Positions 4,694-40,140 of a stretch of 40,140 nucleotides of DNA are shown one piece after another; the stretch's first letter is position 1, and every line of letters starts with the position of its first letter. The notes below the pieces were generated by a model that saw only the letters and a program-made list of their open reading frames with translations, ran no database searches and was not told where the DNA came from. Source of the stretch: Bacteroidales bacterium (GTDB lineage: Bacteria > Bacteroidota > Bacteroidia > Bacteroidales > Paludibacteraceae); contig JAAYUQ010000044.1 of assembly GCA_012517575.1 (NCBI GenBank), forward strand, positions 1-40,140, given 5' to 3'. The translations under genes were made by a program, and so were the position numbers.

Positions 4694-4704
4694 ATTTTTA
4701 AGAT

Positions 4705-4923
4705 ATGACGGCAGAAGATATTTTCAACGAGGTGATAAAATCGCCAGAATTAACAGACATTTTCAACATTCCACAAGAAGTTCTGAATAATCTGAATTAC
4801 AATGCGACTTCGGAATATCAGGTCATTGAAGTAATCAAAACAATTATTCGTGGGGAAGAAAACCATATGGATAGTAGCGCAATTTTTAGAAGTATTCAAA
4901 CTCAAATAATACACTTAGGGTAA
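4705..4923 (+). CDS. Small unrecognised acidic protein of the candidate defence operon
   Basis: A 72-residue soluble protein between the helicase gene (11 bases upstream) and the SMC-like gene (3 bases downstream). It is predicted mainly helical, with an acidic N-terminal half (MTAEDIFNEVIKSPELTDIF) and no cysteine pairs, signal or membrane segment. I recognise no family. Size and position suggest an adaptor between the helicase and the ATPase, like the small middle components seen in other SMC/ABC-type conflict systems, but there is no sequence match to support this. The tight spacing on both sides supports it as a real gene. Confidence 0.65.
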   Translation: MTAEDIFNEVIKSPELTDIFNIPQEVLNNLNYNATSEYQVIEVIKTIIRGEENHMDSSAIFRSIQTQIIHLG

Positions 4924-4926
4924 AAT

Positions 4927-20342: not shown

Positions 20343-20379
20343 TTAATTAAGAATGATACTAAAAGTTCTTCAATAAATT

Positions 20380-21159: not shown

Positions 21160-21299
21160 ATTCGGTCATTTTCTACATTTATACTCGAAATAAAAATTAC
21201 AACCAATCGAGTTAGAACTCAATTCAACTAAAAAAAGTTAACGCCTGAAAAATGAAATTATTTTATTATTTTATCATTTTGAAATAAACGGTTTTCAGA

Positions 21300-23165: not shown

Positions 23166-23250
23166 TTAAAATAACGTTATTCATGAATTTCTCTCCCATT
23201 TTAATTGGGATGAGGGATGCTGGTTCTTTTTAAAAACACAATTATATTCA

Positions 23251-23258
23251 CAAAAGTA
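23251..23258 (-). promoter_or_regulatory. Probable -7 element of the DUF349 gene
   Basis: TACTTTTG on the minus strand, 86 bases before the start codon; no convincing -33 box was seen. Confidence 0.4.
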
Positions 23259-23333
23259 TAATAAATATTTAAAATATCGATGATGTACATTAAAAAAAAT
23301 TAAGTTTTCTCCATCAAAACAACTTCTTTGTTT

Positions 23334-24122: not shown

Positions 24123-24152
24123 ATAACCAGTTCTTAAAAAAATTAAATAAAT

Positions 24153-25394: not shown

Positions 25395-25415
25395 AATTAT
25401 AAAAATTTAAGCATA

Positions 25416-26894: not shown

Positions 26895-26914
26895 GTTCTT
26901 TTTCTTAGAAGGAA

Positions 26915-26922
26915 CAAAATTA
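26915..26922 (-). promoter_or_regulatory. Probable -7 element of the lptF operon
   Basis: TAATTTTG on the minus strand, 20 bases before the lptF start; no clear -33 box. Confidence 0.45.
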
Positions 26923-26998
26923 CGCTAAAAAGTTTAATTCTGCATTATTCATAGCATGAAATATGCTTAAAAACAAAACTTATCAGCAAAAAAATGTA

Positions 26999-27029
26999 CA
27001 AAAAAACCATTTGTTGGACAAACAAATGG
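26999..27029 (-). terminator. Intrinsic terminator of the START-like gene
   Basis: On the minus strand CCATTTGTT (27029-27021) pairs with AACAAATGG (27015-27007) across 5 bases, followed by seven or more T residues. Confidence 0.8.
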
Positions 27030-27060
27030 CAAATTTTCAGATGAAAAAAATAGACAGTGA

Positions 27061-27444
27061 TTACATGCCTCCAATACGTTTTAATTCGTCAACCTGATAG
27101 TTCCACAGCAAAATGGCATCTTCCTTTTCATCTTCCCATGCGAAATCGGTAATAACTAACGTAACTTCACCCGTAAGCTCTTGCGTATCAATTCTAAATT
27201 CGAAATAAGCAGGAGTATTCAAATCGTCAAGCCATTGGAAACGGATACTTTTAAAAGGTTTCAGTTCCAAAATTCGGGCACTTTGTTGAAATTCTTCCCA
27301 TTTAAAAATATAGGTTGAATCGGATGAAAAAACTTCATCAGCAAACCATTCCGATAAACCCAGCGGCGAACCAATTTTATTCCACAAAAAATTTGGAGAC
27401 GCCGACTTGAGAGGATATTCCAATGTAAAAATTGATTTTTGCAT
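27061..27444 (-). CDS. START-like (SRPBCC fold) protein
   Basis: A 127-residue cytoplasmic protein of the Bacteroidota START-like family related to AHSA1/polyketide cyclase folds. It shows the helix-grip pattern: EYPLKSASPNFLWNKIGSPLGLSEWFADEV, a run of beta strands (FKSIRFQWLDD, YFEFRIDTQELTGEVTLVITDF) and a final helix ending ELKRIGG. It probably binds a hydrophobic ligand or partner protein; no specific function is known. A terminator separates it from lptF, so it is its own unit. Confidence 0.85.
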   Translation of the reverse strand: MQKSIFTLEYPLKSASPNFLWNKIGSPLGLSEWFADEVFSSDSTYIFKWEEFQQSARILELKPFKSIRFQWLDDLNTPAYFEFRIDTQELTGEVTLVITDFAWEDEKEDAILLWNYQVDELKRIGGM

Positions 27445-27581
27445 GATTCACTTCATTTTTTTGTCCTTATTCTGCTCCCAAATTCCTGAAAAAAACATGT
27501 ATCGTTTAACGACTGCAATTTAATAAATTAAAATGAGGAGTCAAAATTTATACCTGACAAATTTGGGAAAAAAACGTATAC

Positions 27582-28064
27582 TCATTTTTGCAATTGTAAT
27601 TTGTCGAAGCTCAAAGGCAACAAATCTTTCACGCAAGAGATAACATAAATTTCCTGGCTTCCGTAGAGAAGAATAGTAATATTTGTTTCATAACGCAACT
27701 CCGTTTCCAACAATACCTGCCTGCAAGCACCACAAGGAGTAACGGGCATTTTTAAAAATTCGCCATTGGTAAAAGCAGCTATAGCCAGCGTTTTCACAGG
27801 TATGTCGGGATATTGGGCGTTGGCATAGAAAACAGCGACTCTTTCAGCACACAAACCCGAAGGATAAGCTGAATTTTCCTGATTATTGGCGGTAATAATT
27901 TCACCATTTTCGAGTTCAAGAGCGGCTCCCACATAAAAACCGGAATAAGGCGCATAAGCATTTTGAACCTGTTCCTTTGCTTTATCTATCAACTGTTGCT
28001 GCAAAGAGGTCAATTCGTCAAAACGACAGACCGAATAAGTAACTTTTGTTGATTTTTTAAACAT
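27582..28064 (-). CDS. cdd: Cytidine deaminase
   Basis: A 160-residue homotetrameric-type enzyme that deaminates cytidine and deoxycytidine for pyrimidine salvage. The substrate loop is PYSGFYVGAALELENG, the catalytic CAE motif is in SGLCAERVAVF (Cys and Glu), and the other two zinc cysteines are in PCGACRQVL, giving the three-cysteine zinc site. It starts at ATG 28064, downstream of a minus-strand TACTTTTG box, and diverges from the glucosaminidase gene. Confidence 0.95.
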   Translation of the reverse strand: MFKKSTKVTYSVCRFDELTSLQQQLIDKAKEQVQNAYAPYSGFYVGAALELENGEIITANNQENSAYPSGLCAERVAVFYANAQYPDIPVKTLAIAAFTNGEFLKMPVTPCGACRQVLLETELRYETNITILLYGSQEIYVISCVKDLLPLSFDKLQLQK

Positions 28065-28119
28065 ATTATAATCAAATTAATAATCCTATCAGAAAAAATT
28101 TCCCTTTTGCAGGGGGGTA

Positions 28120-28127
28120 CAAAAGTA
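28120..28127 (-). promoter_or_regulatory. Probable -7 element of cdd
   Basis: TACTTTTG on the minus strand 55 bases before the start; the nearest TTTG upstream is only 14 bases away, so the -33 box is uncertain. Confidence 0.45.
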
Positions 28128-28170
28128 AAAAAATAATTAATCAAACACTCATTTTTGAGAAAATAAATTA

Positions 28171-28178
28171 TATTTTTG
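28171..28178 (+). promoter_or_regulatory. Probable -7 element of the glucosaminidase gene
   Basis: TATTTTTG, giving a leader of roughly 150 bases before ATG 28339 that contains a small AT palindrome near 28270-28290. Confidence 0.4.
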
Positions 28179-28338
28179 CAATAAAATAAACTTTATTACC
28201 GGTTTCTATCTTTCAAGCTGTAAACCACTAAAGTTTTAAAAAAATGTGTACAGAGAATTTTCCAGCTTGCAAATTTTTCAAATTTGTCCTAAGTTGAGCG
28301 ATCAATTTTTTTTAGAACCATTTCAGAAAAGAGTCCTT

Positions 28339-29283
28339 ATGTATTCAGTTGCAAAAAAATTTAGTCTTTCCATTGTTTTGCTTCTTTTTACCAATTTTGC
28401 TTTTGGTCAGCAACTCAATAAATATTACCTATCCTATATCGAAAAATACCATCAGTTGGCCATCAAACAACAAAAAAAACACGGTATTCCTGCGAGTATA
28501 ATTTTGGCTCAGGGCTTACTTGAATCTTCAGCGGGTCAAAGCCAACTTTCTCAACTTTCAAACAACCATTTCGGAATTAAATGCAATTCCGACTGGAACG
28601 GAGAAACCATTTCATGGGACGATGACGAAAGAAATGAATGTTTTAGAAAATACAGAAATGTTGCCGATTCATATGAAGACCATTCTTTGTTTTTGAAAAA
28701 CCGCCCGCGTTATGCTTCCCTTTTTCAATTGGACAAAACCGATTATCAAGGTTGGGCACATGGACTAAAAAAGGCTGGTTATGCCACCGATCCAACTTAT
28801 GCTTACAAGCTTATTTCCTTGATTGAAAACTACAACTTGAATCGATTCGACAAACAAATTTTTAATGAAAATTTTGCTGAAAGAATGGAAATTCAAATCA
28901 ATACTTCCATTCCACAGCATATTCAAAAAGTGAGTGATTATGTAACACACAAAAAGTTAAAAAACAATGGTGTTCCTTATGTAATGGCTGTTCCGTGCGA
29001 TACTTATGCCAACATCGCTCAAGAATTTAATATGAGTGAAGAGACCCTCAGAAATTACAACGAAGTCAGCGCCACCACGGCATTACAACCCGGAGAAAAA
29101 GTATATATTCGTCCAAAAAAGAATAAAGCTGCAAAAAATTATCCCGTTCATGTAGTACAAGAAGGAGAATCTATGCATGATATTGCACAATTTTACGGAA
29201 TAAAAACTGAAAAACTTTACAAAATGAACCAACTTCCTTTTACGGAAGGAGCACAAGTGGGACAGGTACTAAAATTGCGCTAA
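28339..29283 (+). CDS. Secreted GH73-type N-acetylglucosaminidase with two LysM domains
   Basis: A 314-residue peptidoglycan hydrolase. A signal peptide (MYSVAKKFSLSIVLLLFTNFAFG) is followed by a glucosaminidase (mannosyl-glycoprotein endo-beta-N-acetylglucosaminidase-like) domain at about 30-170: GIPASIILAQGLLESSAG with the likely catalytic Glu, then NNHFGIKC and FRKYRN. Two LysM modules follow at about 213-260 (divergent) and 268-314 (HVVQEGESMHDIAQFYGI). It cuts glycan chains during wall growth or division. An upstream GTG at 28246 would precede the signal peptide with 31 unrelated residues, so ATG 28339 is chosen. The DciA-like gene follows after 25 bases. Confidence 0.93.
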   Translation: MYSVAKKFSLSIVLLLFTNFAFGQQLNKYYLSYIEKYHQLAIKQQKKHGIPASIILAQGLLESSAGQSQLSQLSNNHFGIKCNSDWNGETISWDDDERNECFRKYRNVADSYEDHSLFLKNRPRYASLFQLDKTDYQGWAHGLKKAGYATDPTYAYKLISLIENYNLNRFDKQIFNENFAERMEIQINTSIPQHIQKVSDYVTHKKLKNNGVPYVMAVPCDTYANIAQEFNMSEETLRNYNEVSATTALQPGEKVYIRPKKNKAAKNYPVHVVQEGESMHDIAQFYGIKTEKLYKMNQLPFTEGAQVGQVLKLR

Positions 29284-29308
29284 AACCCAATTATTTTTTT
29301 TCAAAACC

Positions 29309-29599
29309 ATGCGGAGAAAAAACACGGAATTATTAAGAGAAATTATTCGGCAAATGTTAAAGGATCAACATTTGGAAAAACCGTTGTATGAAAAAAGAAT
29401 TATAGACGCATGGACTTCAGTGCTGGGACCACAGATAGAGAAATATACCAGCCACTTGGAAATCAAAAATGCAATATTATATGTGAGCATTAATTCTGCC
29501 GTATTGCGACACGACTTATTCCTCTCGAGAGAAGAAATAAAAAATGCCTTGAACAAAGAAGTGGGTCATGAAGTTATCAACGCTATCGTTTTTCGTTGA
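29309..29599 (+). CDS. DciA/DUF721-like protein
   Basis: A 96-residue basic protein matching the DUF721 core: MLKDQHLEKPLYEKRIIDAWTSVLGPQIEKYT, then a KH-like beta-alpha segment (LEIKNAILYVSINSAVLRHDLFLSREEI). In other bacteria DciA loads the replicative helicase; Bacteroidota carry this short form, usually next to recF or dnaA, here instead behind the glucosaminidase gene. Complete, cytoplasmic, probably co-transcribed with the upstream gene. Confidence 0.85.
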   Translation: MRRKNTELLREIIRQMLKDQHLEKPLYEKRIIDAWTSVLGPQIEKYTSHLEIKNAILYVSINSAVLRHDLFLSREEIKNALNKEVGHEVINAIVFR

Positions 29600-29695
29600 C
29601 TAAAAAATCCACGTATTTTATTAAATATCAATACATTAGTTTTATTTCCACAGAAGAAAACTTCAGAAAAGAAACATACAAGGAAAAAAAGTGTT

Positions 29696-29703
29696 ACTTT
29701 TGC
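29696..29703 (+). promoter_or_regulatory. Probable -7 element of the carboxyltransferase operon
   Basis: TACTTTTG, 61 bases before the start of the carboxyltransferase gene; no clear -33 box. Confidence 0.4.
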
Positions 29704-29764
29704 TCACTCATTGAAAGCCCATTAAAGGGTGAATTTTTATGTTTAATCACAATAATTTATTGTT

Positions 29765-31309
29765 ATGTCAACTAAGAAAAACATTATTGCATTGCGCCAA
29801 AAGAAAGCAATCGTAGAAAAAGGCGGCGGTGAAAAAGCTATTGAAAAACAATTGGCAATGGGTAAAATGACAGCCCGCGACCGCATCCGCGCTTTGTTGG
29901 ACGAAGGCTCGTTTCACGAATACGATTTGTTTGTGCAGCACGAAGAAAAAAATTTCGGAATGGACACAAAAGATTTGCCCGGTGATGGAGTCATTACAGG
30001 AACAGGAACCATCAATGGAAATCCTGTTTGTATTTACGCTCAAGATTTTACCGTGATGGGTGGTTCTTTGGGGATTCAACATGCCAGAAAAATAACCAAA
30101 ATCATGGATCACGCACTCAAAATGAAAATGCCTTGTATTGGAATAAACGATTCGGGAGGAGCTCGTATTCAGGAAGGGATTGGTGCATTGGCCGGCTATG
30201 GTGAGATTTTTTATCGCAATACTATGGCTTCAGGCGTAATTCCACAGATTTCCGTAATTCTTGGACCTTGCGCCGGTGGCGCAGTATATTCACCTGCATT
30301 GACCGATTTTGTTTTTGTGGTAGAAAATATCTCCAAAATGTTTATCACCGGCCCTAATGTAATTGAAACTGTACTGGGAGAAAAAATATCACAAGAAGAT
30401 TTGGGAGGCGCCAGGGTACATGCCGAAATTACAGGTAACGCTCACTTCTATGCGCTGAGTGAAAAAGAATGTTTGCAGCAGATCAAGGAACTCATTTCGT
30501 ACATTCCCCACAACAACGAAGAAAAAGCTGCCAAAGTGGAACCAAAAAAGCCAAAATTCAAAAAAAATATCGAAAATATCATTCCTTCCAATCCAAAACT
30601 TCCCTACGATGTCCGCGAAATAATCTATGCTTTGGTAGATGATTCAAAATTTTTTGAAGTTCAGGAACTTTTTGCTCCCAACATTGTAATAGGTTTTGCC
30701 CGAATGGATGGAGAAACGGTTGGTTTTGTTGCCAATCAGCCAATGTATTTGGCAGGTGTGCTGGATTGCGATGCATCCGATAAAGCAGCACGTTTTATTC
30801 GTTTCTGCGACGCATTCAATATACCGCTGGTTACATTGGAAGATATTCCAGGCTATTTACCCGGCGTAGATCAGGAACATGCAGGTGTCATTCGGCATGG
30901 CGCAAAAGTGCTTTATGCCTATTCAGAGGCAACCGTGCCAAAAATTACCGTTATTCTGAGAAAAGCTTACGGAGGTGGATACATTGCCATGAATTCCAGA
31001 CATTTGGGTGCTGATTTTACTTTTGCTTGGCCTGAAGCCGAAATCGCAGTGATGGGACCAGAAGGTGCCGCCAATATTATTTTCAAAAAAGAAATTATGG
31101 AAGCTGAAGATCCGGATGCCATGCGTCAACAGAAGGTTAAAGAATATATTGAAAAATTCGCAAATCCTTTTGTTGCTGCCGGTAAAGGTTACATTGATGC
31201 TGTAATTGAGCCACTCGAAACCCGCGAATTGTTACTTCATGCTCTCAGCGTTTCCAGAAAAAAATTCGATTTCCGTCCCGTCAAAAAACACGGAAATCCG
31301 CCACAATAA
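29765..31309 (+). CDS. mmdA: Acyl-CoA carboxyltransferase subunit (methylmalonyl-CoA decarboxylase alpha / propionyl-CoA carboxylase beta)
   Basis: A 514-residue crotonase-fold carboxyltransferase. The N-half has MTARDRIRALLDEGSFHEYD, the acyl-CoA oxyanion site SGGARIQEG and GPCAGGAVYSPALTDF; the C-half has the biotin-side motifs GYLPGVDQEHAGVIRHGAK and RKAYGGGYIAM. It moves CO2 between methylmalonyl-CoA (or propionyl-CoA) and the biotin on the carrier encoded next. In Bacteroidales it serves propionate formation from succinate. The membrane beta subunit (mmdB) and a biotin carboxylase are not next to it, so the direction of the reaction cannot be fixed from this window. Confidence 0.92.
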   Translation: MSTKKNIIALRQKKAIVEKGGGEKAIEKQLAMGKMTARDRIRALLDEGSFHEYDLFVQHEEKNFGMDTKDLPGDGVITGTGTINGNPVCIYAQDFTVMGGSLGIQHARKITKIMDHALKMKMPCIGINDSGGARIQEGIGALAGYGEIFYRNTMASGVIPQISVILGPCAGGAVYSPALTDFVFVVENISKMFITGPNVIETVLGEKISQEDLGGARVHAEITGNAHFYALSEKECLQQIKELISYIPHNNEEKAAKVEPKKPKFKKNIENIIPSNPKLPYDVREIIYALVDDSKFFEVQELFAPNIVIGFARMDGETVGFVANQPMYLAGVLDCDASDKAARFIRFCDAFNIPLVTLEDIPGYLPGVDQEHAGVIRHGAKVLYAYSEATVPKITVILRKAYGGGYIAMNSRHLGADFTFAWPEAEIAVMGPEGAANIIFKKEIMEAEDPDAMRQQKVKEYIEKFANPFVAAGKGYIDAVIEPLETRELLLHALSVSRKKFDFRPVKKHGNPPQ

Positions 31310-31419
31310 TCAGGAAAAGAATTTTTTCACTAATGACAGATAAAAAAAATGAAGTGAAAAGCCAAATATTTAGTTTGTAAGTTTCACATTATTTTTATTG
31401 AAAATTAAAATGAAAAATT

Positions 31420-31767
31420 ATGAAAAACAATAAACCTGTACAGGCAGAAAATCCAGATTTTGTAGATTTTGCAATTACAGCACGTAAATATAAAACGTTG
31501 CTCACAAAAAAATTTCTCAGTAGAAAAAAATGGGAAAATCCCAGTCCTTACGAAATTTTTTCATCTATTCCTGGCACGGTAGTAGATATTTATGTAAAGG
31601 AAGGTGATGTTGTTGAAGAAGGAGCACCATTGATGACACTGGAAGCTATGAAAATGCAAAATAAGATTGAAATGCCTTTCACGGCAAAAATAAAAAAAAT
31701 AAATGTTCAGAAAGGGGAACAAATACCAAAAGACTTTTTGATCTTCGAATTGGAACCCGTCGAATAA
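31420..31767 (+). CDS. Biotin carboxyl carrier protein of the acyl-CoA carboxylase/decarboxylase
   Basis: A 115-residue protein. The C-terminal 75 residues are a biotinyl domain (SSIPGTVVDIYVKEGDVVEEG) with the biotin attachment lysine in LEAMKMQNKI. The N-terminal 40 residues are short and basic, without the usual long Pro/Ala linker. Its start is 110 bases after the carboxyltransferase and it is ended by a strong terminator, so the two form a compact unit; the carrier shuttles CO2 to or from the missing partner subunit. Confidence 0.92.
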   Translation: MKNNKPVQAENPDFVDFAITARKYKTLLTKKFLSRKKWENPSPYEIFSSIPGTVVDIYVKEGDVVEEGAPLMTLEAMKMQNKIEMPFTAKIKKINVQKGEQIPKDFLIFELEPVE

Positions 31768-31807
31768 TGACCCAACACAAGCAAAAAAAATTGCTTTGTT
31801 AAATCTT

Positions 31808-31862
31808 GAAAAGTCTCTTCGTTGTAACGACAAAATGTCGAGAAAACGGAGAGACTTTTTTT
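31808..31862 (+). terminator. Intrinsic terminator after the biotin carrier gene
   Basis: GAAAAGTCTCTTCGTT (31808-31823) pairs with AACGGAGAGACTTTTT (31845-31860) with one G-T pair, followed by a T-run. It is a long, stable stem. Confidence 0.85.
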
Positions 31863-31944
31863 ATCCAATACGATATAACTGATTGAAAGCCAAATATAAA
31901 TGACGCAGTTGTCAACTACAGCATTTCAAAATATTCCGTCTCAT

Positions 31945-31987
31945 GGCAATTTCAAATTGCCTATCTTCATAAAATATTATACTTTTG
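31945..31987 (+). promoter_or_regulatory. Promoter with an overlapping perfect palindrome, upstream of the Nmad1-tpiA operon
   Basis: ATTG at 31956-31959, a 20-base spacer and TACTTTTG at 31980-31987 make a good Bacteroidota promoter. The -33 box sits in a perfect inverted repeat, GGCAATTT-C-AAATTGCC (31945-31961), as expected of a repressor or activator site. Confidence 0.65.
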
Positions 31988-32073
31988 TACTCTCAATAGA
32001 AGTATTTTATTTTTCCGACTGTTGATCAGTGAATACCCGGAATTTAAAACAATAGCACAACCAACTTTTACTC

Positions 32074-32640
32074 ATGAATCAAACCAACAAACAATTTGAC
32101 CAAATCGCTGCTATTTGCCGCAACATTTTCATTCAGAAACTGAAAGATTATGGTGCTTCATGGCGACTCTTGCGCCCGGCTTCGGTTACTGATCAACTAT
32201 ATATCAAAGCCAATCGCATCAGAAACATTCAAGTAAAAGGTTTTTCTAAAATTAATGAGGGCATTCGCTCAGAATTTATCGGTATTGTAAATTATGGCAT
32301 TATTGGTTTGATTCAGCTGGAAAAAGGTTTTGCCGAAAAACCCGACCTTTCAGTAGAAGAAGCTACTGCTTTATACGACAAATACATGCAACAGGCAAAA
32401 GAGTTGATGATGAACAAAAACCACGACTACGACGAAGCATGGAGAAACATGCGAATTGAATCGATAGTGGATCTGATATTGATGAAAATTGAAAGAACCA
32501 AACAAATTGAAGAGAACGAAGGGAAAACATTGATTTCTGAAGGTATTGACGCCAATTATCTTGATATGATTAATTACGCTATTTTCGCCTTAATCAAAAT
32601 GGAAGAGAACGAACGTCAACAAAAAAAGGAAATTGCTTAA
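32074..32640 (+). CDS. Nmad1 (DUF1599) protein with internal duplication
   Basis: A 188-residue all-helical cytoplasmic protein. Residues about 8-85 and 98-180 are two related copies (LKDYGASWRLLRPASVTDQLYIKANRIRNIQ...NYGIIGLIQLE against NHDYDEAWRNMRIESIVDLILMKIERTKQIE...NYAIFALIKMEE). The family (nucleotide-modification-associated domain 1) is found in phage and bacterial operons with modified-nucleotide enzymes; in Bacteroidota this two-copy form is a conserved chromosomal neighbour of the BT_3928-like and tpiA genes. Its chemistry is unknown. First gene of a three-gene operon. Confidence 0.85.
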   Translation: MNQTNKQFDQIAAICRNIFIQKLKDYGASWRLLRPASVTDQLYIKANRIRNIQVKGFSKINEGIRSEFIGIVNYGIIGLIQLEKGFAEKPDLSVEEATALYDKYMQQAKELMMNKNHDYDEAWRNMRIESIVDLILMKIERTKQIEENEGKTLISEGIDANYLDMINYAIFALIKMEENERQQKKEIA

Positions 32641-32668
32641 ATACAATTGAAATTATTCATTAAATCTC

Positions 32669-33832
32669 ATGTCATCAGATATTTATAAAAGCAAAAAAAT
32701 GGTTTTCCCTGCCGAACAAAAAGGGAAAAAAATTCTATTCATTCGAATATGTAGCATCCTTTTAGGAGTGCTTTTTGTATTTTCAGGCTTCGTGAAAGCC
32801 ATTGATCCGCTGGGAACTACTTATAAAATTGAAGATTATTTGAATGCTTTTGGAGAACCTTTTTCCCAATTCGTTTTTTTGGCTTTGCCTGCTGCAATTT
32901 TTCTTTCCACCTTAGAACTGGTAATGGGACTAAATCTTTTGCTCAGGATTTATGTACGATTCACCACATGGGTAGCTACTGCATTTCTTTTTTTGATGAC
33001 CTTGTTGACTTTTTATATTGCTCTAAAAAATCCTGTTACCGACTGCGGTTGTTTTGGTGACGCTATTGTTCTCACCAACTGGCAAACTTTTATTAAAAAT
33101 ATTTTATTTATTTCCCTTTCTATTTTTCTACTTATCAACCGAAAACATCTTTATCCGCTCGTTCTTCCTCCATTAGAAGCTGTTTTTACTGTTTTATTTG
33201 TTTTAATTGGGGTGGGAATTTCGATGTATTGTTTCTTCCATTTACCCTTGATAGATTTTCGTCCCTACAAAGTGGGTGTAAATATTTATGAAGCCATGCA
33301 AATTCCGGAAGGAGCAAAACCAGATATTTATGAGACTACCTTTATTTACGAAAAAGATGGCGAACAGAAAGAGTTTAATCTCGAAAACTATCCAAAAAAT
33401 GACAAAAGCTGGAAGTTTGTCGACCAGAAAACAAAATTGATTTCGAAAGGCTATCAACCTCCGATTCACGACTTCACCATCCTCAATAATGACAATGAAG
33501 ATATTTCGGATATTATTCTTTCTCAACCCGATACGACCTTTCTGCTCATCATGTACGACATCAACAAAACCTCGCTTGAAGGAGCAAAAAAAGCAGAAAG
33601 AATTTTTCAAAAAACTCAGCAATCCGGTCATTCGTTTTATGCCATTACGGCTTCAACCGATAACGATATTCAAAAATTTTCAGAACAAACAAAAATCTCA
33701 TTTCCTTTTTACAAAGCCGATCCTATTATGCTGAAAACCGTCATTCGCGCCAATCCTGGTTTGGTACTCATAAAGAATGGAACAATTTTGGGGAAATGGA
33801 ATTGGCGAGATTTTCCCGAAACCTTTTATTAA
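32669..33832 (+). CDS. BT_3928-type DoxX-like membrane protein with thioredoxin-like tail
   Basis: A 387-residue inner-membrane protein. About residues 25-180 hold four to five membrane helices of the DoxX/MauE type (RICSILLGVLFVFSGFVKAIDP, then DCGCFGDAI in a loop). A periplasmic region about 200-387 has a weak thioredoxin-like fold (SLEGAKKAERIFQKT...SFPFYKADPIMLKTVIRANPG) without a CxxC in the tail. The DCGCFG cysteines in the membrane domain are the same as in MauE/DoxX proteins that pass electrons to thioredoxin-like partners. It is 28 bases after the Nmad1 gene. Confidence 0.87.
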   Translation: MSSDIYKSKKMVFPAEQKGKKILFIRICSILLGVLFVFSGFVKAIDPLGTTYKIEDYLNAFGEPFSQFVFLALPAAIFLSTLELVMGLNLLLRIYVRFTTWVATAFLFLMTLLTFYIALKNPVTDCGCFGDAIVLTNWQTFIKNILFISLSIFLLINRKHLYPLVLPPLEAVFTVLFVLIGVGISMYCFFHLPLIDFRPYKVGVNIYEAMQIPEGAKPDIYETTFIYEKDGEQKEFNLENYPKNDKSWKFVDQKTKLISKGYQPPIHDFTILNNDNEDISDIILSQPDTTFLLIMYDINKTSLEGAKKAERIFQKTQQSGHSFYAITASTDNDIQKFSEQTKISFPFYKADPIMLKTVIRANPGLVLIKNGTILGKWNWRDFPETFY

Positions 33833-33916
33833 AAAAACGAAAAGAAGTAAAACTATACAAATACATCTTGATAAGAAACAAACTTAATTTTTCAAACTCA
33901 ATAAAAAACAGAAAAT

Positions 33917-34672
33917 ATGAGAAAAAACATTGTAGCCGGAAATTGGAAAATGAATAAAACCTTACCGGAAGGTTTGGCCTTGGCAACAGAATTAGACAAA
34001 ATGCTTTCGGGTTGCCAACCCAAGTGTGAAGTAATTATTGCCCCGCCGTTTATCCACTTGGCAAGCATAACGGCAACAATTGATACAAAAAAAATTGGCG
34101 TTTCCGCACAAAACTGTGCCGACAAGGAATCTGGAGCCTATACGGGTGAAGTTAGTGCAGCAATGGTGAAATCTACCGGTGCCAATTACGTTATTTTAGG
34201 TCATTCCGAACGCAGAACATATTACGGTGAAACTCCCGCCATTCTGAAAGAAAAAGTTAATCTGGCTTTAAAAAACGAACTTACACCCATTTTTTGTATA
34301 GGGGAAGTACTTGCCGAAAGAGAATCGGGAATTTATTTTGACGTAGTGAAATCTCAAATTGAAGGTTCATTGTTTCACCTTTCTGCGGAAGATTTTTCAA
34401 AAATCATCCTTGCTTACGAACCTGTTTGGGCGATTGGGACAGGAAAAACTGCCACACCTCAGCAGGCACAGGAAATGCACGCTTTCATACGCAAAACCAT
34501 TACCGAAAAATATGGAAAAAACATAGCTGAAAACACTTCCATTCTTTACGGTGGCAGCTGCAATCCCGCCAATGCAAAAGAATTGTTTGCCAATGAAGAT
34601 GTTGATGGCGGATTGATTGGCGGGGCTTCTTTGAAAGCTGCCGATTTCAAAGCCATTATTGATACATTTTAA
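33917..34672 (+). CDS. tpiA: Triosephosphate isomerase
   Basis: A 251-residue glycolytic enzyme interconverting dihydroxyacetone phosphate and glyceraldehyde 3-phosphate. Catalytic residues are visible: K11 (GNWKMN), H96 (LGHSERR) and E168 ([13 protein letters not shown]), with the phosphate-binding loop near the end ([16 protein letters not shown]). Full length and intact. Last gene of the Nmad1-BT_3928-tpiA operon; a terminator follows 40 bases later. Confidence 0.97.
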
Positions 34673-34707
34673 GCGCTTTAATTAACGTAACTTTTCAATG
34701 TTTCTAT

Positions 34708-34745
34708 AAAAAAATCCGTAAATTCTGTTTTACGGATTTTTTTAT
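34708..34745 (+). terminator. Intrinsic terminator after tpiA
   Basis: AAAATCCGTAAA (34711-34722) pairs with TTTACGGATTTT (34729-34740) around a 6-base loop, with T-run after. Nearly symmetrical, so it could act on both strands. Confidence 0.85.
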
Positions 34746-34752
34746 AACTTTG
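34745..34752 (+). promoter_or_regulatory. Possible -7 element of the Sua5/TsaC gene
   Basis: TAACTTTG matches TAnnTTTG, 44 bases before the start; the -33 region falls in the preceding terminator, so the promoter is uncertain. Confidence 0.35.
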
Positions 34753-34796
34753 GTAAATTTTTTCGGACAAATTCTTTTTAGTTTTTTTGACGGAAT

Positions 34797-35405
34797 ATGC
34801 TGATTAAAATTTACGAAGCCAATCCAAATCCCCATGAAATACATCGCGTAATTGAAACCTTACGCGACGGAGGAACTATCATATTTCCCACCGATACGGT
34901 TTATGCTTTCGGATGCAGTCTTTTCAACAAAGACGGCGTTGAATATATCTCCCGTATCAAGAAGAAAGATCTTCGCCGTTCTCAACTTTCATTTGTATGC
35001 GAATCTATCAGCCAAATAAGCGAATATACCAATCTTGATGACGATACTTTCAAACTGATAAAGAAAAATTTGCCCGGTCCGTTTACTTTTATTCTCAATG
35101 GCAACCATCGGCTTCCCAAACTTTTCAAAGATAAAAAAACGGTTGGCGTACGAATGCCTAAAAATAATATTGCCCTCACCATTGTACACGAATTGGGAAA
35201 CCCGCTAATGACCAGCTCGATTTTTTACCACAACAATTCATTGGAATATATTGTTGATCCTGAACTTATTGAAGAAAAATACGGCCATTTGGTCGATTTG
35301 GTAATCGATGGCGGCCCCGGAGGCTATATTCCTTCCACTATTGTCGACTGTACCGGTGACGAACCGGTAATTGTCAGACAAGGTGCCGGTGAACTGGTTT
35401 ATTGA
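34797..35405 (+). CDS. Threonylcarbamoyl-AMP synthase family protein (Sua5/YciO/YrdC)
   Basis: A 202-residue YrdC-fold protein. The RNA/ATP-binding segments are DGGTIIFPTDTVYAFGCSL, RIKKKDLRRSQLSF, LPGPFTFIL, VGVRMPKN, MTSSIF and STIVDCTGDEPVIVRQGAGEL. It makes threonylcarbamoyl-AMP from threonine, bicarbonate and ATP for the t6A37 tRNA modification, or is the YciO paralogue; the KKKDLRR.QLSF region is closer to YciO-like members than to TsaC. No Sua5 C-terminal domain. Monocistronic as far as visible. Confidence 0.87.
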   Translation: MLIKIYEANPNPHEIHRVIETLRDGGTIIFPTDTVYAFGCSLFNKDGVEYISRIKKKDLRRSQLSFVCESISQISEYTNLDDDTFKLIKKNLPGPFTFILNGNHRLPKLFKDKKTVGVRMPKNNIALTIVHELGNPLMTSSIFYHNNSLEYIVDPELIEEKYGHLVDLVIDGGPGGYIPSTIVDCTGDEPVIVRQGAGELVY

Positions 35406-35574
35406 AAATTTTCAGCCAAATAAATCAAAAATTGTCAAACTTTTATTGAAATTTCTACGGAAATTTTTCTACAGAGAAATCCACTAAACGCAGATTCAGT
35501 ATTAGAAAATTAGGTACAACAAATTGTAGATCAGCCTATAAAGTTCAAAGTTTAGCCTAATTGTTTATAATGAA

Positions 35575-35842
35575 TAAGTTAACGTGAGTTCGATAGATGA
35601 AAATGAATATTATACAAGCAATTATAAATAAGGTAATAAGGTTGATGAAAAAAAAGTATTCACCTGTTACGAAGGTTAGTTGTGTCAAATAAGGTCTTTA
35701 TATTCAGAAAACGAACCCCATTATTTTATAAAACCTTAGTAACGTTAATCAACAACAAGAATAAACCTTATTATCTTATTAATTATTAAATTTTTATATG
35801 ATTAAAACAGGTAAATCGTTATACCGAACTCACGTTAAGTTA
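35575..35842. mobile_element. MITE-like element with 11-bp terminal inverted repeats and a 7-bp target duplication
   Basis: The element proper is 35582-35835 (254 bp). It begins ACGTGAGTTCG and ends with the exact complement CGAACTCACGT. TAAGTTA flanks it on the left (35575-35581) and the right (35836-35842), as expected of a target site duplication. Inside, AATAAGGTAATAAGGTT near 35627 has a near-complement near 35764-35780, adding fold-back potential. It has no transposase, so it would need one from elsewhere in the genome. Confidence 0.75.
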
Positions 35843-35854
35843 CGTTCACTGAGT

Positions 35855-36006
35855 TGCAGAAATGATATTTAATATCTTTGAATGCATAATCTGGGATTAA
35901 ACCACATTGCAGGATATCCGTTTCATGATTATGAATAATAATCAAAAATTATATTTTTTCTGCAGAAATGGTATTTTATTTTTTGAATAAGTAATCTGGA
36001 ATCAAT
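35855..36006 (+). repeat. Two decayed direct repeats about 46 bp long
   Basis: 35855-35900 and 35961-36006 both begin TGCAGAAATG and share TTTGAAT and TAATCTGG in the same order, at an estimated three-quarters identity. Origin unknown. Confidence 0.4.
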
Positions 36007-36415
36007 TGACCCTTAATGTTGAATATATTTCCATTCTTCATTTAACTTGAAAAATACACAAAGTGCTTATTAGCAATTTCAGTTGCAAATGAATTCATTA
36101 AATATTTTCTTATTCTACTATATAATTTAGGTTCCATTTCTGAAAAATACACTTGACTGGCTTCCACATTGATTTGGAAAAAACAATAATTTTTCAGTTG
36201 CAATATTAATAATAATTAGGTAAATTTTTGCGTAACATCTATTTAATCAGTTGAGTACATATTTTATTCTGAAAAACGGATTTAGTATAGATTATCATTT
36301 AGTTATGAACTAATATTTGAAAAAATATTTAACTATTGTCATTAATTTAAAAGGTTTTTTCTTAATTTAATTTTCTTCGTGTCGAAAAAAAAAGATAGAA
36401 AAATTTTTCACGATA

Positions 36416-36447
36416 TGAACATTTGTTCAAAATAAGTAGTATATTTG
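36416..36447 (+). promoter_or_regulatory. Promoter with a GAAC-N4-GTTC palindrome ahead of the DUF134/ORP-like cluster
   Basis: TATATTTG at 36440-36447 is a full match to the -7 consensus. The -33 position is covered by a perfect palindrome, TGAACA-TT-TGTTCA (36416-36429). It would drive the broken DUF134 gene and the downstream cluster. Confidence 0.6.
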
Positions 36448-36489: not shown

Positions 36490-36736
36490 ATGCCTCGTCC
36501 CAAACAGTGTCGAAAATAGGTTCGCCGCCATTGATAATAGGATTTAAGCCATCGCAAAGGCTTTCGTGGAAGGTAAAATGATTGTAATCGAAGGAGGAAA
36601 TGTAGATTTTGGCCGGGAATGGTATCGTTGCAGAAAGTGCCACAAATTGATCGATGGTCTTGAAAATCATACCGCTTGCAGACATTGCAAAAGTTTTGGC
36701 GATGAGGAATTAATTCCCATTAGTAACGATCAATAA
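36490..36736 (+). pseudogene. Broken DUF134 regulator gene (frameshift plus internal deletion of the HTH)
   Basis: Three frames spell one DUF134 protein with its middle missing. ATG 36490 gives MPRPKQCRK, then TAG. One base back in frame, from 36516, comes IGSPPLIIGFKP. From 36551, in a third frame, comes IAKAFVEGKMIVIEGGNVDF and the zinc-ribbon-like tail WYRCRKCHKLI...HTACRHCKSFGDEE to TAA 36734-36736. Intact DUF134 proteins have about 50 residues between KP and the IAKAFVEGK segment, including the DNA-binding helix-turn-helix, and these are absent. ATG 36578 could still start a 52-residue piece with the cysteine pairs. DUF134 genes commonly accompany MTH1175/MinD clusters, which matches the genes downstream. 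Confidence 0.75.
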
Positions 36737-36743
36737 TTCCATT

Positions 36744-37580
36744 ATGAAAGCTGTTGTTTTATCCGATAATAGAAAAGGATTCCCCGATATTGAAACAGAG
36801 CACGGGTTATCAATTTATTTTGAAACCGGAAAGCACAGGATTTTACTCGATACGGGCGGATCGGATTTATTTCTGCAAAATGCTTCGAAATTGAATATCG
36901 ATCTGAAGGCAGTAGATTACGTATTTATTTCTCATGGGCACAATGACCACATGGGAGGATTACCGTATTTTCTGAAAATAAACACCCGTGCCAAAATAAT
37001 CGTTTCTCCGAATGTGATGCATCGTTCTTTTTATTCCAAAAGGAACGGATTTCATACCATTGGTTTGGATTTTGATTTTTCGCCTTATCAACATAGATTG
37101 ATACCGATCGAGAAGGAATGCCGGATCGACGATGAAATTAGTATTTTTGTGAATACTTCAACCCGATTTGAACAGCCTCTGGCCAACCAAACGCTGTTTT
37201 GTGAGGGTAAAAATCATGAAATCATCCCAGATGATTTTTCGCACGAATTGATATTTACCCTTACCAACAACGAAAGACTTTTTGTATTCACGGGATGTGC
37301 ACACAAAGGTTTATTGAATATACTTGAAACAGTAAAAGAAAAACTTGAATTCCCTATACAATGGGTGATGGGAGGATTTCATTTACTTGATTCAAAAAAC
37401 GGTGTCGATTACGAAACGGAAGAGAACATCGCTGAAATCGCCAATTATCTGAATGTGCATTATCCTTCATCCCTGTTCATTACGGGGCATTGTACCGGAG
37501 ATCGAGTTTTTGGTCAATTAAAAAATATGTTGGAAGACAGATTAACTCAATTTTTCAGTGGATACACTGTTCAATTTTAA
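36744..37580 (+). CDS. Metallo-beta-lactamase-fold protein of the DHPS-like type
   Basis: A 278-residue protein. The metal motif SHGHNDHMGG gives H64, H66, D68 and H69; the next conserved pieces are FTGCAHKGLLN (about 185) and GGFHLLD, ending with TGHCTGD near 247. It matches the archaeal/anaerobe family annotated as 7,8-dihydropterin-6-methyl-4-(beta-D-ribofuranosyl)aminobenzene-5'-phosphate synthase. In anaerobic bacteria such proteins sit in MTH1175/MinD clusters and their substrate is unproven. It starts 8 bases after the DUF134 remnant. Confidence 0.88.
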   Translation: MKAVVLSDNRKGFPDIETEHGLSIYFETGKHRILLDTGGSDLFLQNASKLNIDLKAVDYVFISHGHNDHMGGLPYFLKINTRAKIIVSPNVMHRSFYSKRNGFHTIGLDFDFSPYQHRLIPIEKECRIDDEISIFVNTSTRFEQPLANQTLFCEGKNHEIIPDDFSHELIFTLTNNERLFVFTGCAHKGLLNILETVKEKLEFPIQWVMGGFHLLDSKNGVDYETEENIAEIANYLNVHYPSSLFITGHCTGDRVFGQLKNMLEDRLTQFFSGYTVQF

Positions 37581-37591
37581 AAAGAAAGTTT

Positions 37592-37906
37592 ATGAAAATA
37601 GCTATTACGTCAGAAGGGAATTCCCTTAATTCAAACATGGATGCTCACTTTGGTAGATGTTCTTATTTTGTTTTTTATGATACTGAAACCGGTAAAACTG
37701 ATTTTATTGTCAATCCTGCCAAAGAAGCTGCTGAAGGAGCCGGCCCTGCAGCAGTTCAATTTATCGGATCAAAAAAAGTTGAAAAAGTGATTTCCGGCGA
37801 ATTTGGATTAAAAATAAGATCATTGCTGGAGAGCTTGAATATCGAAATGCAACGTGAACACGATAAAACCATTGCAGAAATTATTAAACAATTTAAAAAT
37901 CAATAA
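37592..37906 (+). CDS. MTH1175/NifX-like (dinitrogenase iron-molybdenum cofactor family) protein
   Basis: A 104-residue cytoplasmic protein that is one NifX/MTH1175 domain: MKIAITSEGNSLNSNMDAHFGRCSYF, VNPAKEAAEGAGPAAVQFI, VEKVISGEFGLKIRSLLE. This fold binds metal-sulphur clusters; the family includes the orange protein (ORP) of sulphate reducers. An earlier in-frame start at 37490 lies inside the upstream gene and gives unrelated residues, so ATG 37592 is chosen. Followed after 4 bases by the first DUF5320-like gene. Confidence 0.9.
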   Translation: MKIAITSEGNSLNSNMDAHFGRCSYFVFYDTETGKTDFIVNPAKEAAEGAGPAAVQFIGSKKVEKVISGEFGLKIRSLLESLNIEMQREHDKTIAEIIKQFKNQ

Positions 37907-37910
37907 TAAA

Positions 37911-38120
37911 ATGCCCAAATTAGATGGAACTGGTCCGGAGGGACAAGGTCCCGGAACCGGCCGAAAAATCGGAAAATGCAACATCTTGCCTGAAGATGAA
38001 AAAGTAAATTTGTTGGGAACAGGTATGGGGAAACGCCGAAATAGTGGTGGTGGAGAAGGACAAAAGAAACGCTTGAAAAGCGGGGATAAAATAATAACAA
38101 TATTAAAAAAAAGGAGGTAA
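37911..38120 (+). CDS. DUF5320-like glycine-rich small protein 1
   Basis: A 69-residue protein with the family start MPKLDGTGPEGQGPGTGRKIGKCN, a second glycine patch (LLGTGMGKRRNSGGGEG) and a basic tail ending KKRR. The family accompanies MTH1175 and MinD-type genes in anaerobes; its role is unknown. The last codons form a perfect Shine-Dalgarno for the next gene. Confidence 0.8.
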   Translation: MPKLDGTGPEGQGPGTGRKIGKCNILPEDEKVNLLGTGMGKRRNSGGGEGQKKRLKSGDKIITILKKRR

Positions 38121-38122
38121 TT

Positions 38123-38377
38123 ATGCCAAACTTAAACAGAAGAGGACCAAATGGAGAAGGTCCACGAACGGGAAGAGGATTAGGTCGTTGCAACCCTGAA
38201 AATAAGGGGAAAACCGATGAAGAAATTTTGTGCGATCGTACAGAAAACGACTCTAACCAGGAAATTTTTTATGGCCGCGGTCGGCAGCTCGGTTATGGGA
38301 TGGGGCGCGGATTAGGCAGAGGAAATGGTTTAGGATTAGGACGAGGACAAGGTCCTCACCTGGGCCGAAATCGATGA
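38123..38377 (+). CDS. DUF5320-like glycine/arginine-rich small protein 2
   Basis: An 84-residue protein beginning MPNLNRRGPNGEGPRTGRGLGRCNP, with a low-complexity tail of GRG/GLG repeats (YGRGRQLGYGMGRGLGRGNG). It is a diverged partner of the preceding protein, only 2 bases downstream. An AAGGAGG ribosome binding site at 38111-38117 lies within the end of the upstream gene; such strong sites are unusual in Bacteroidota and fit an origin in another phylum. Confidence 0.8.
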   Translation: MPNLNRRGPNGEGPRTGRGLGRCNPENKGKTDEEILCDRTENDSNQEIFYGRGRQLGYGMGRGLGRGNGLGLGRGQGPHLGRNR

Positions 38378-38385
38378 ATTTTGTA

Positions 38386-38415
38386 AAAGGTTGTATGACA
38401 AAACGTACAACCTTT
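38386..38415 (+). other. Hairpin in the ORP-like cluster
   Basis: AAAGGTTGTA (38386-38395) pairs with TACAACCTTT (38406-38415) around 10 bases. No T-run follows, so it is likely a messenger-stabilising or processing hairpin, or a weak attenuator, ahead of the second MTH1175 gene. Confidence 0.6.
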
Positions 38416-38465
38416 ATCAGAGTCGAATTAATTTTAATAAATAACTATACACCAATAATTTACAA

Positions 38466-38804
38466 ATGAAATACTTATTTGCTATTCCATTGGAAAATGG
38501 AATTTTATCGCAGCATTTCGGGCATTGCCAACAATTTGCTTTTGTTGAAGTCGATAATGGTTTAATCACAAAACAAACATTAATTACACCACCACCTCAT
38601 GAACCGGGATTACTCCCTGCTTGGCTTGCAGAAAAAGGGGTTACCGATATTATTGCTTCCGGAATAGGGCAAAAAGCAATCAATTTATTTCAACAACAAC
38701 ATATCAGGGTATATATGGGAGCTCAGCAAAAAAGTCCTGCCGAACTGGTTTCCGATTGGATTGAAAAATCGCTTACTACCGGTGTCAATGCCTGTGATCA
38801 CTAA
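38466..38804 (+). CDS. MTH1175/NifX-like protein 2
   Basis: A 112-residue single-domain MTH1175 protein: MKYLFAIPLENGILSQHFGHCQQFAF, EPGLLPAWLAEKGVTDIIASGIGQKAINLF, and the typical ending TTGVNACDH. The HFGHC and NACDH residues are those expected near a cluster-binding site. It differs from the first copy mainly in the end motif, suggesting different partners. Thirteen bases precede the DUF89 gene. Confidence 0.9.
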   Translation: MKYLFAIPLENGILSQHFGHCQQFAFVEVDNGLITKQTLITPPPHEPGLLPAWLAEKGVTDIIASGIGQKAINLFQQQHIRVYMGAQQKSPAELVSDWIEKSLTTGVNACDH

Positions 38805-38816
38805 AAAACGGAAATA

Positions 38817-39776
38817 ATGAGGTCTGATTATCGTTGTTATTTTTGCTTTGCTCGCCTTTTTGAAGAGTTGATCGAAAAGACGTCCCTCTCGGCCGAAGAA
38901 AAAAACCGTTTTGCCGGCGAATTGTTTGGATTATTCAATACGGAAGGAAACAGTTTTTCAGTTCCTTATTTGTCGCGAGAGGTGCACCTTCTTTTCAAAA
39001 AATACAGTGGCAACGACAATCCGTATAAATTGGTCAAACGTCAAAGCAACGATATGGTTTTAAGCAGGTACGACGATTTAAAAAAGACAGTCGCCTCATC
39101 GGCAGATCCTTTCGTCATGGCATTAAAATTGGCCATTGCGGGAAATATTATAGACTATGGCATTCCGCAACAGTTTGATTTAGATGAAACCATCAGGAAA
39201 GTACTGACTTCCGATTTTGCCATCGATCATTCAAAAGATTTAAAACAATCGTTGTCTGAAGCAAAATTGGTGTTGTATATTGGGGATAATGCAGGGGAAA
39301 TCGTATTTGACAAACTATTTATCGAAACCATTCACCATCCCGATGTGTGGTATGCTGTTCGAGGGGCTCCGATTATCAATGACGTAACACCGGAAGATGC
39401 GAATTATGTGCAAATGAATGACGTAGCTCACGTAATAGAAAACGGATACGATGCTCCTTCTACCATGCTGTCACATTGTTCGGAAGAGTTTAAAGACCTT
39501 TTTTCACGGGCCGATATTGTCATCTCGAAAGGACAGGGAAATTTGGAAAGTTTGCTTCATTATCCGACAAAAAAAATTTATTTTCTCTTAATGGTAAAGT
39601 GTCCTGTCATTGCGGATATTTTAGGCGTTAAAAAAGGAGAATTCGTTGTTACACAAAACAGATTCAAAAATGAAAATTGCCATAGCAAGTGGAAAGGGGG
39701 GCACAGGGAAAACGTTTGTCTCGACCAATCTTTTTTGGACGGCACAACATTCCGGAATGCCGACTACGCTGATTGA
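38817..39776 (+). CDS. ARMT1-like (DUF89) protein
   Basis: A protein of up to 319 residues. The N-terminus has a CYFC pair, the core has LYIGDNAGEIVFDKLFIE (about 155), the phosphate/metal-binding VRGAPIINDVTPEDA, then VISKGQGNLESLL (about 237) and the ending FLLMVKCPVIADILGV. These are the hallmarks of DUF89/ARMT1 metal-dependent phosphatases, short archaeal-type branch, whose substrates are not established. The real family end is near residue 283; the last 35 residues run in a different frame over the MinD gene, so the true C-terminus may be shorter or changed by a frameshift. Confidence 0.85.
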   Translation: MRSDYRCYFCFARLFEELIEKTSLSAEEKNRFAGELFGLFNTEGNSFSVPYLSREVHLLFKKYSGNDNPYKLVKRQSNDMVLSRYDDLKKTVASSADPFVMALKLAIAGNIIDYGIPQQFDLDETIRKVLTSDFAIDHSKDLKQSLSEAKLVLYIGDNAGEIVFDKLFIETIHHPDVWYAVRGAPIINDVTPEDANYVQMNDVAHVIENGYDAPSTMLSHCSEEFKDLFSRADIVISKGQGNLESLLHYPTKKIYFLLMVKCPVIADILGVKKGEFVVTQNRFKNENCHSKWKGGHRENVCLDQSFLDGTTFRNADYAD

Positions 39777-40140
39777 TTGCGATGCCGAAGAACCGAATGT
39801 AAGTGAATTTCTTAACGGAGAGGAACAATTGGTGGAGCATATATTCCAAAACGTTCCGCATATTAATGTGGAAGCATGTATTTTTTGCGGAAAATGTGCC
39901 GAATACTGCAACTATAATGCGATTCTGTTTTTGCAGGAAAATCGCTTCATAAAAGTATTGCCTGACCTATGCCACGATTGCGGAGCTTGTTCTTACGCCT
40001 GTGAATACGGAGCCATTATTGAACAAGAAAAAACAATAGGGACTGTAAAAATCAGTCTTGTCGGAAACTCTTCTCACATTATCGAAAGTCGTTTGGAGGT
40101 TGGAGAGCATTCACCTGTTTCCGTTATCAAAAAAGCCATA
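39670..40140 (+). CDS. MinD/ParA-family ATPase with inserted two-cluster ferredoxin, cut by the window end
   Basis: ATG 39670 opens a frame that stays open to the window edge (157 codons). The deviant Walker A GKGGTGKT is at residues 8-15, followed by LIDCDAEEPNVSEF. Two [4Fe-4S] motifs follow: C70-x2-C73-x2-C76-x3-C80 and C101-x2-C104-x2-C107-x3-C111. This is the MinD-type ATPase of anaerobe ORP-like clusters, related to Mrp/NBP35, expected to handle an iron-sulphur or metal-sulphur cluster with the MTH1175 proteins. It overlaps the DUF89 frame by 107 bases. The C-terminal part is outside the window. Confidence 0.92.
   Translation, partial: MKIAIASGKGGTGKTFVSTNLFWTAQHSGMPTTLIDCDAEEPNVSEFLNGEEQLVEHIFQNVPHINVEACIFCGKCAEYCNYNAILFLQENRFIKVLPDLCHDCGACSYACEYGAIIEQEKTIGTVKISLVGNSSHIIESRLEVGEHSPVSVIKKAI

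Follow-up and report, generated by a model that had tools for sequence, protein, structure and literature searches.

Where does a set of genes resembling those of the orange protein complex (ORP) come from in a Bacteroidales chromosome, what might it do, and how might it be controlled? These questions are raised by the right-hand end of contig JAAYUQ010000044.1, which we analysed over its whole length of 40,140 nucleotides (nt) and call the window. In the draft genome (assembly GCA_012517575.1; 2.5 Mb in 160 contigs, 89% complete), it is contig C123. An earlier note had listed, on one strand, genes for DUF134, an MBL-fold protein, two MTH1175-type proteins (here MTHa and MTHb), two DUF5320 proteins, DUF89 and a MinD ATPase with a ferredoxin domain. 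Gene families were assigned by Pfam profile matches, which returned this list except for DUF134, whose gene is broken. By a modest preference over the alternatives discussed below, we read the locus as a recently transferred ORP-like metal-sulphur operon whose own DUF134 gene decayed, which is repressed by DUF134 through a palindrome, and over which a resident DUF134 copy probably took control. The operon probably serves to make, transport or store iron-sulphur material. The window would then hold an operon that moved across genera and lost its own regulator while keeping the operator.

The suspected relation to ORP is borne out by protein homology. MTHa matches the PDB entries 2wfb (named ORP; E 1.6e-7), 1rdu (E 9.5e-13) and 1eo1 (MTH1175; E 5e-10); for MTHb, 2wfb was not among the PDB matches up to E 1. 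Contig C123 stops within the MinD gene (MinD1), and its last 141 bases are identical to the end of contig C72 (locus L071), which carries the remainder of MinD1, then a second ferredoxin-bearing MinD gene (MinD2), which the earlier note had proposed to look for to the right of the window, followed by genes for a radical SAM protein, Mrp and a CoA-disulphide reductase-rhodanese. MTHb matches positions 266-364 of the MrpORP model NF041136, the C-terminal half, with 119.5 bits, and Mrp matches positions 3-254, the N-terminal half, with 260.3 bits; in alignments to fused Peptoclostridium MrpORP, MTHb covers 291-400 and Mrp 21-264. A PF02579 search of the draft genome found no further protein of this family beyond MTHa and MTHb. 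Judged by sequence, the Bacteroidales operon is thus a set of ORP-type parts, with MrpORP divided into two genes, plus DUF89 and two DUF5320 genes.

Characterised MrpORP has a Di-Nase half with the motifs CXHFGHCE and CDH, and its NTPase half transfers iron-sulphur (Fe-S) clusters to the Orp3-Orp4-Orp8 complex, in which Orp3 and Orp4 have two ferredoxin motifs each (these points from the relevant passages of PMC6345978). Window MTHb reads SQHFGHC and CDH; among 47 MTHb proteins, HFGHC is present in 44, CxHFGHC in 32 and C[DNS]H near the end in 46. The serine is ruled out as a sign of decay, SxHFGHC being found in 6 of the 47. Many MTHb proteins (L031, L088, L091, L096, L097 and others; L numbers denote loci) end in a His-rich extension after C[DN]H, which looks as if made for binding further metal. 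At L097, from 5818 onwards, a single open reading frame (ORF) of 595 residues takes the place of the two MinD-ferredoxin genes seen elsewhere; its score against the MinD model, 753 bits, is about double that of a single MinD. This natural fusion suggests that MinD1 and MinD2 act together as a pair.

The head gene of the window cluster starts at 36490 with MPRPKQCRK and runs into a stop after 9 codons. Compared with Seramator thermalis, the gene lacks about 165 nt, which include those of the helix-turn-helix, and a Cys-rich C-terminal remnant survives in another frame (36566-36736). The early stop and the missing helix-turn-helix rule out an intact DUF134 gene here, and a Pfam search gave no PF02001 match to the remnant up to E 1. 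At the equivalent position, S. thermalis (L012) has an intact DUF134 of 137 residues with the whole PF02001 domain. The window genome itself has a second, resident DUF134 on contig C31, intact and with the whole domain, followed by a ZIP metal transporter gene (PF02535, E 3.7e-39). The two kinds of DUF134, resident and cluster-type, share 61% identity and the stretch VSRPTLTRIYE. The resident copy, whose operator is the same and whose recognition helix is nearly that of the cluster type, probably took over. If it can serve the cluster operator, this would explain why loss of the incoming DUF134 was tolerated. A literature search on DUF134/UPF0251 and DUF5320 led to PMC7565180 and PMC5886521, in whose passages on these families we found no functional study.

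To the extent that DUF134 has a DNA target, its upstream regions offer a concrete candidate. We scanned 42 regions of up to 200 nt upstream of DUF134 genes and found the core GAAC-N4-GTTC in 20 of them, against none at every other spacing from 0 to 12; no combination of a 4-base half-site and a spacing was commoner. Shuffled regions gave a mean of 0.06 (maximum 1), and stretches drawn at random from the same loci 0.4 (maximum 3); 12 more of the 42 carry the core with one mismatch. As read by eye, a TAnnTTTG box, which we take to be the consensus of a Bacteroidota promoter element, lies within 25 nt of the core in 19 of the 20 and exactly 14 nt after the core start in 12 of these, a placement suited to repression. 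The longer palindrome TGAAC-N4-GTTCA occurs 41 times in 80 loci (1.11 Mb), compared with an average of 1.2 for 660 rearrangements of half-site and spacing (the pattern itself included) and a next highest count of 11; the loci were picked around DUF89, so cluster genes are over-represented among these sites. By a script rule, 25 of the 41 precede a DUF134 gene. By our own reading of the output, the other 16 comprise one at a DUF134 gene called with too early a start (L096), four ahead of MTHa (L015, L017, L083, L104), five ahead of DUF5320 (L019, L077, L100, L111, L123), and single sites ahead of MBL (L018), of a Gly-rich protein and DUF89 (L113), of an aminotransferase-like gene (L023) and of a gene taken by eye for a ZIP-like transporter (L017); the last two, both in L025, lie within genes. 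At 4 of 7 operon heads lacking a same-strand DUF134, the exact core stands no more than 250 nt from the called start. A single metal-sulphur regulon is suggested by the recurrence of the palindrome ahead of MTHa, DUF5320, MBL, a DUF89-side gene and a ZIP-like transporter.

In the window genome, the palindrome is found at four places: two in genes, the window site, and a C31 site that ends 44 bp before the intact resident DUF134. Both copies outside genes (2/2) therefore precede a DUF134 gene, one broken and one resident. Of the five sites in S. thermalis, one stands before its DUF134 gene, and the genus-mate genome G001 has one before its DUF134-DUF89 pair. The DUF134-ZIP gene pair (L242, 4087-5279, and L243, 5518-6707) occurs in the window genome and in the other genus-mate, G002, with the operator core upstream; in G002, GAACATAAGTTC stands about 50 bp upstream of it. 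We predict that the palindrome is the DUF134 operator, which is what is new here and would give a so far unstudied family a concrete DNA target. As a general DUF134 site it is ruled out, since it was not found before two Firmicutes DUF134 genes.

Comparison with relatives supports a transfer of the operon between genera. RpoB of the window genome is 88.8% identical to that of G001 and 78.8% to that of S. thermalis, whose own RpoB is 86.7-87.9% identical to those of L013, L014, L015 and L017 (two titled Proteiniphilum). With 40 first-look candidates scored per genome, the flank at 20001-36400 is collinear with G002 at 84-85% DNA identity; against G001 the match is 70-74%, in blocks of more than 800 nt that are grouped on contigs C35 and C91, and against S. 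thermalis 65-76%, in pieces no longer than 1.2 kb. From 36390 on, the DNA is first 84.7% and then 92.3% identical to that of S. thermalis, continuing on C72 at 94.2% and 89.1% up to the end of the reductase gene. GC content is 36.4% in the left flank, 38.6-41.1% in the cluster and 36.8% in the right flank on C72; the S. thermalis locus has 40.2-42.6%. MinD1 was found in 16 of 150 genomes of the family and not in G001 or G002 (E 1e-30); these two have other genes after the Sua5-like gene and, in the stretches compared, no match to the right flank on C72.

The trees point the same way. The DUF89 tree joins the window to S. thermalis (support 100/99) and then to the Proteiniphilum group (100/98), and a pairing of the window with G001 is rejected; in the RpoB tree, G001 is the partner of the window and the Proteiniphilum group that of S. 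thermalis. As to vertical or horizontal descent in Bacteroidales at large, DUF89 and RpoB tree distances across 41 genomes, leaving aside five second-clade genomes, are only weakly correlated (r 0.12; 60 of 999 permutations as high). The most likely source is a Seramator relative, on the Seramator/Proteiniphilum side of the family. S. thermalis has the cluster genes in the same succession, but without the radical SAM gene, and because strain m5 lacks that gene there, the source was most likely not m5 itself as it stands. Proteiniphilum acetatigenes (L017) has the radical SAM gene at the same place, between MinD2 and Mrp, and is without the MBL and DUF134 head. The acquisition that the earlier note proposed is supported, with a source near Seramator and Proteiniphilum and no showing of an origin outside Bacteroidota; vertical descent across Bacteroidales with no gene order in common with ORP clusters is not what we found.

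The cluster is not special to the window genome, an explanation ruled out by its presence in many Bacteroidales. A search with the DUF89 protein gave matches in 76 of 393 Bacteroidales genomes and in 8 of 61 near relatives; hits to the NF040824 model came from 4 of 395 genomes of the class, a figure not comparable to the former, as samples and queries differ. Neighbourhoods were compared at 77 loci, taken from 67 of the 76 genomes together with G001, G201, G336 and seven named loci, with L071, L030 and L019 excluded as further contigs of counted genomes. By tree, 51 loci belong to a cluster clade (including L018, L029 and L117, whose DUF89 is short or split and not in the tree) and 21 to a second clade; the five others, two of which (L129, L130) are not in the tree, have no cluster neighbours. 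Within 6 kb on the same strand, the cluster clade has MTH genes at 44 of 51 loci, DUF5320 at 40, MinD-ferredoxin at 38, DUF134 at 34 and Mrp at 19, all lower bounds, as contig ends cut some loci. MTHb stands directly before DUF89 in 41 of the 51 and DUF89 directly before MinD in 37, and the succession MTHb-DUF89-MinD is found across 23 Bacteroidia family codes, including one from outside the order. MBL is the gene immediately before DUF89 at 6 of 21 second-clade loci. With its gene order repeated in other Bacteroidales genomes, the window cluster is more than a chance assembly of genes.

The computations themselves establish the gene content and order, the homology of MTHb and Mrp to the two MrpORP halves, the transfer signal, the operator pattern and the breakage of DUF134. 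From these parts, we infer the following biochemistry, repression, signal and takeover. DUF134 bound at TGAAC-N4-GTTCA beside the promoter would occlude it and so repress the operon, and its Cys-rich end would sense a change in metal or Fe-S status, leading to release from the operator. MTHa would carry a metal-sulphide cluster or polymer, which the two small, cationic, one-Cys DUF5320 proteins may bind or shield in the manner of a counter-ion. MTHb and Mrp might jointly, in some changed form, do the carrier job of the two-domain MrpORP, with the two ferredoxin-bearing MinD ATPases as an ATP-driven transfer unit. DUF89 would clear an interfering phosphorylated compound, and the rhodanese-reductase, a kind of protein with a role in sulphur supply, would provide reduced sulphur. 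The operon would have arrived from the Seramator/Proteiniphilum side, after which the incoming DUF134 decayed and the resident DUF134 took over. A wider and doubtful extension is that DUF134 is a metal- or Fe-S-responsive repressor family (in Bacteroidales, on WTGAAC-N4-GTTCAW) over an iron-sulphide storage and cluster-assembly module, that DUF5320 is the in-trans cationic tail of an ORP/IssA-type protein, and that resident DUF134 proteins take over operons moved from genus to genus, whose incoming copy is lost.

Several observations weigh against our reading. A CxxC at the MrpORP position was found neither in Mrp of the window genome and S. thermalis nor in any of the 25 Mrp genes of the loci (one without a clear ENM anchor); this motif of the NTPase domain binds the transferable cluster, MrpORP transfer depends on it, and its absence counts against a simple split-MrpORP equivalence. 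Mrp also scores slightly higher against ApbC (270.9 bits) than against MrpORP, both below the cut-off, and the window genome has another Mrp, 55% identical. As to the operator, 10 of the 42 Bacteroidales upstream regions have 2 or 3 mismatches to the core, the palindrome is absent before the two Firmicutes DUF134 genes, and a control search with the pattern reversed likewise gives 4 sites in the window genome (none in S. thermalis), so that there the position of the sites, not their number, is informative. No partner genes accompany DUF89 at 3 of 51 cluster-clade and 10 of 21 second-clade loci. Finally, a chimeric assembly at 36.39 kb is a caveat on the transfer.

Among the alternatives, the one that fares best, though rather unlikely, is that the operon is a split IssA, whose main task is to store iron and sulphide on MTHa in the form of a thioferrate-like polymer, with DUF5320 as the detached cationic tail. 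IssA stores thioferrate and, according to PMC5524996, joins an MTH1175-type domain to an unstructured, cationic tail of 70 residues that is rich in Gly and aromatic residues, has an isoelectric point (pI) of 10.7 and contains the sole Cys of the protein. Two DUF5320 sorts recur, type a (~60 residues, Lys-rich) and type b (~75 residues, Arg-rich). Among 61 DUF5320 rows, picked by model or by a motif with part of the Gly/Arg pattern in which Cys was not required, all have G[RK]xxGxC, 51 have one Cys (nine have two, one has three) and 55 have a pI of at least 9.5 (range 7.9-12.0). Gly/Arg tails were looked for on the MTH proteins of the loci and none was seen, the only extensions being the His-rich ends of some MTHb. 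DUF5320 may supply an IssA-like tail in trans, by analogy of composition. That likeness extends to composition only, however: aromatics make up 14 of the 70 tail residues of IssA, type a has a few or none, and a storage role would leave the ATPases, DUF89 and Mrp unexplained.

Less probable again is a true ORP complex, with a Mo-Cu sulphide cluster on MTHa and ATPases serving cell division. The match of MTHa to 2wfb and the paired MinD-ferredoxin ATPases are in its favour, but 1rdu and 1eo1 outscore 2wfb, there is no fused MrpORP, no sigma-54 activator is among the ORFs listed for the window, and no ORF of at least 50 residues is left over between the cluster genes as a candidate for Orp5 ([2Fe-2S]), whose sequence was not compared. 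The link of ORP to cell division, which the earlier note had given as known, is a proposal only in the pertinent passages of PMC6345978 ('putatively involved') and PMC4672049 ('tempting hypothesis'). Least probable is a decaying passenger or an assembly chimera: DUF134 is broken, and the contig break within MinD1 with its exact 141-bp overlap could arise if similar copies coexist in the sample, but the remaining genes are open, MinD1 runs on in C72, the GC contents of the two flanks agree, and the MTHb serine is no mark of decay.

Table 1. Features at the right-hand end of the window and on contig C72
Feature	Position	Strand	Basis or remark
AT-rich stretch, from native Sua5-like gene to transferred segment	35406..36389	no strand	GC 24.9%; repeat matches in G001, G002
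Segment read as transferred, runs on into contig C72	36390..40140	+	DNA identity to L012 (Seramator thermalis)
Predicted DUF134 operator TGAACATTTGTTCA	36416..36429	no strand	pattern match
TAnnTTTG box, presumed Bacteroidota -7 type promoter element	36440..36447	+	consensus match
Broken DUF134 gene	36490..36736	+	9 codons, stop; helix-turn-helix gone; Cys-rich end remains
MBL-fold metallo-hydrolase	36744..37580	+	PF00753 E 2.5e-13; PDB 2p4z E 1.7e-41
MTHa, ORP/MTH1175-type protein	37592..37906	+	PF02579 E 2.3e-17; PDB 2wfb E 1.6e-7
DUF5320 type a (Lys-rich)	37911..38120	+	PF17253 E 1.1e-10
DUF5320 type b (Arg/Gly-rich)	38123..38377	+	PF17253 E 1.6e-8
MTHb, free-standing counterpart of MrpORP C-terminal half	38466..38804	+	PF02579 E 8e-18; NF041136 119.5 bits
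DUF89/ARMT1-type phosphatase	38817..39776	+	PF01937 E 1.1e-60
MinD-ferredoxin ATPase 1 (MinD1), 5' part	39670..40140 (contig end)	+	CbiA E 3.4e-10, Fer4 E 5.6e-11
Radical SAM protein, between MinD2 and Mrp	L071 (C72) 4363-5298		

Within the AT-rich stretch (Table 1), two pieces of about 270 and 73 bp at 35574-35969 match many contigs of G001 and G002 at 69-88% and are either a dispersed repeat of the genus or part of a mobile element. The DUF89 protein is 319-320 residues long here, compared with about 280-310 at most other loci, and judged by this greater length it seems to have lost its original stop. The DUF89 and MinD1 genes share 107 nt in the window (39670-39776), with a similar overlap in S. 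thermalis. Against the NF040824 equivalog, DUF89 scores 182.3 bits, under the cut-off of 440; it belongs to the wider PF01937 family (205.9 bits, cut-off 25). On a Roseburia plasmid, a radical SAM gene precedes DUF89.

Set beside known systems, the ORP-like operon that we favour would bring DUF134, DUF5320, this DUF89 clade and free-standing Di-Nase proteins into one shared, testable context. Like the ORP operons of Desulfovibrio vulgaris (Orp3, Orp4, Orp5, Orp8, Orp9), it has an ORP-type protein in MTHa, two ferredoxin-bearing MinD ATPases and homologues of both MrpORP domains. Unlike them, it has MrpORP split over the MTHb and Mrp genes, with an Mrp that is without CxxC; DUF89, two DUF5320 and MBL are added, a DUF134 gene rather than a sigma-54 activator stands at the head, and the genes run in one direction rather than in two divergent operons. 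Pyrococcus furiosus IssA likewise joins an MTH1175-type domain to a cationic segment that is rich in Gly and has one Cys, whereas here the segment lies in separate genes, type a has few aromatics, and ATPases and DUF89 are present. The DUF89 damage-control phosphatases (PDB 2g8l, E 1.2e-44; 2ffj, E 7.3e-29) are homologous over the domain, which here lies within an ORP-like operon. Peptoclostridium acidaminophilum, from another phylum, has one plasmid locus with the order DUF134-NifX-ATPase-ATPase-MrpORP and another with DUF5320-radical SAM-SDR-DUF134-MBL-Fur-DUF89. In contrast to the Bacteroidales operon, its families are thus spread over two separate loci, its MrpORP is fused and no site like the palindrome was found before its DUF134 genes, but the families are the same, and DUF134 again stands at or near the head.

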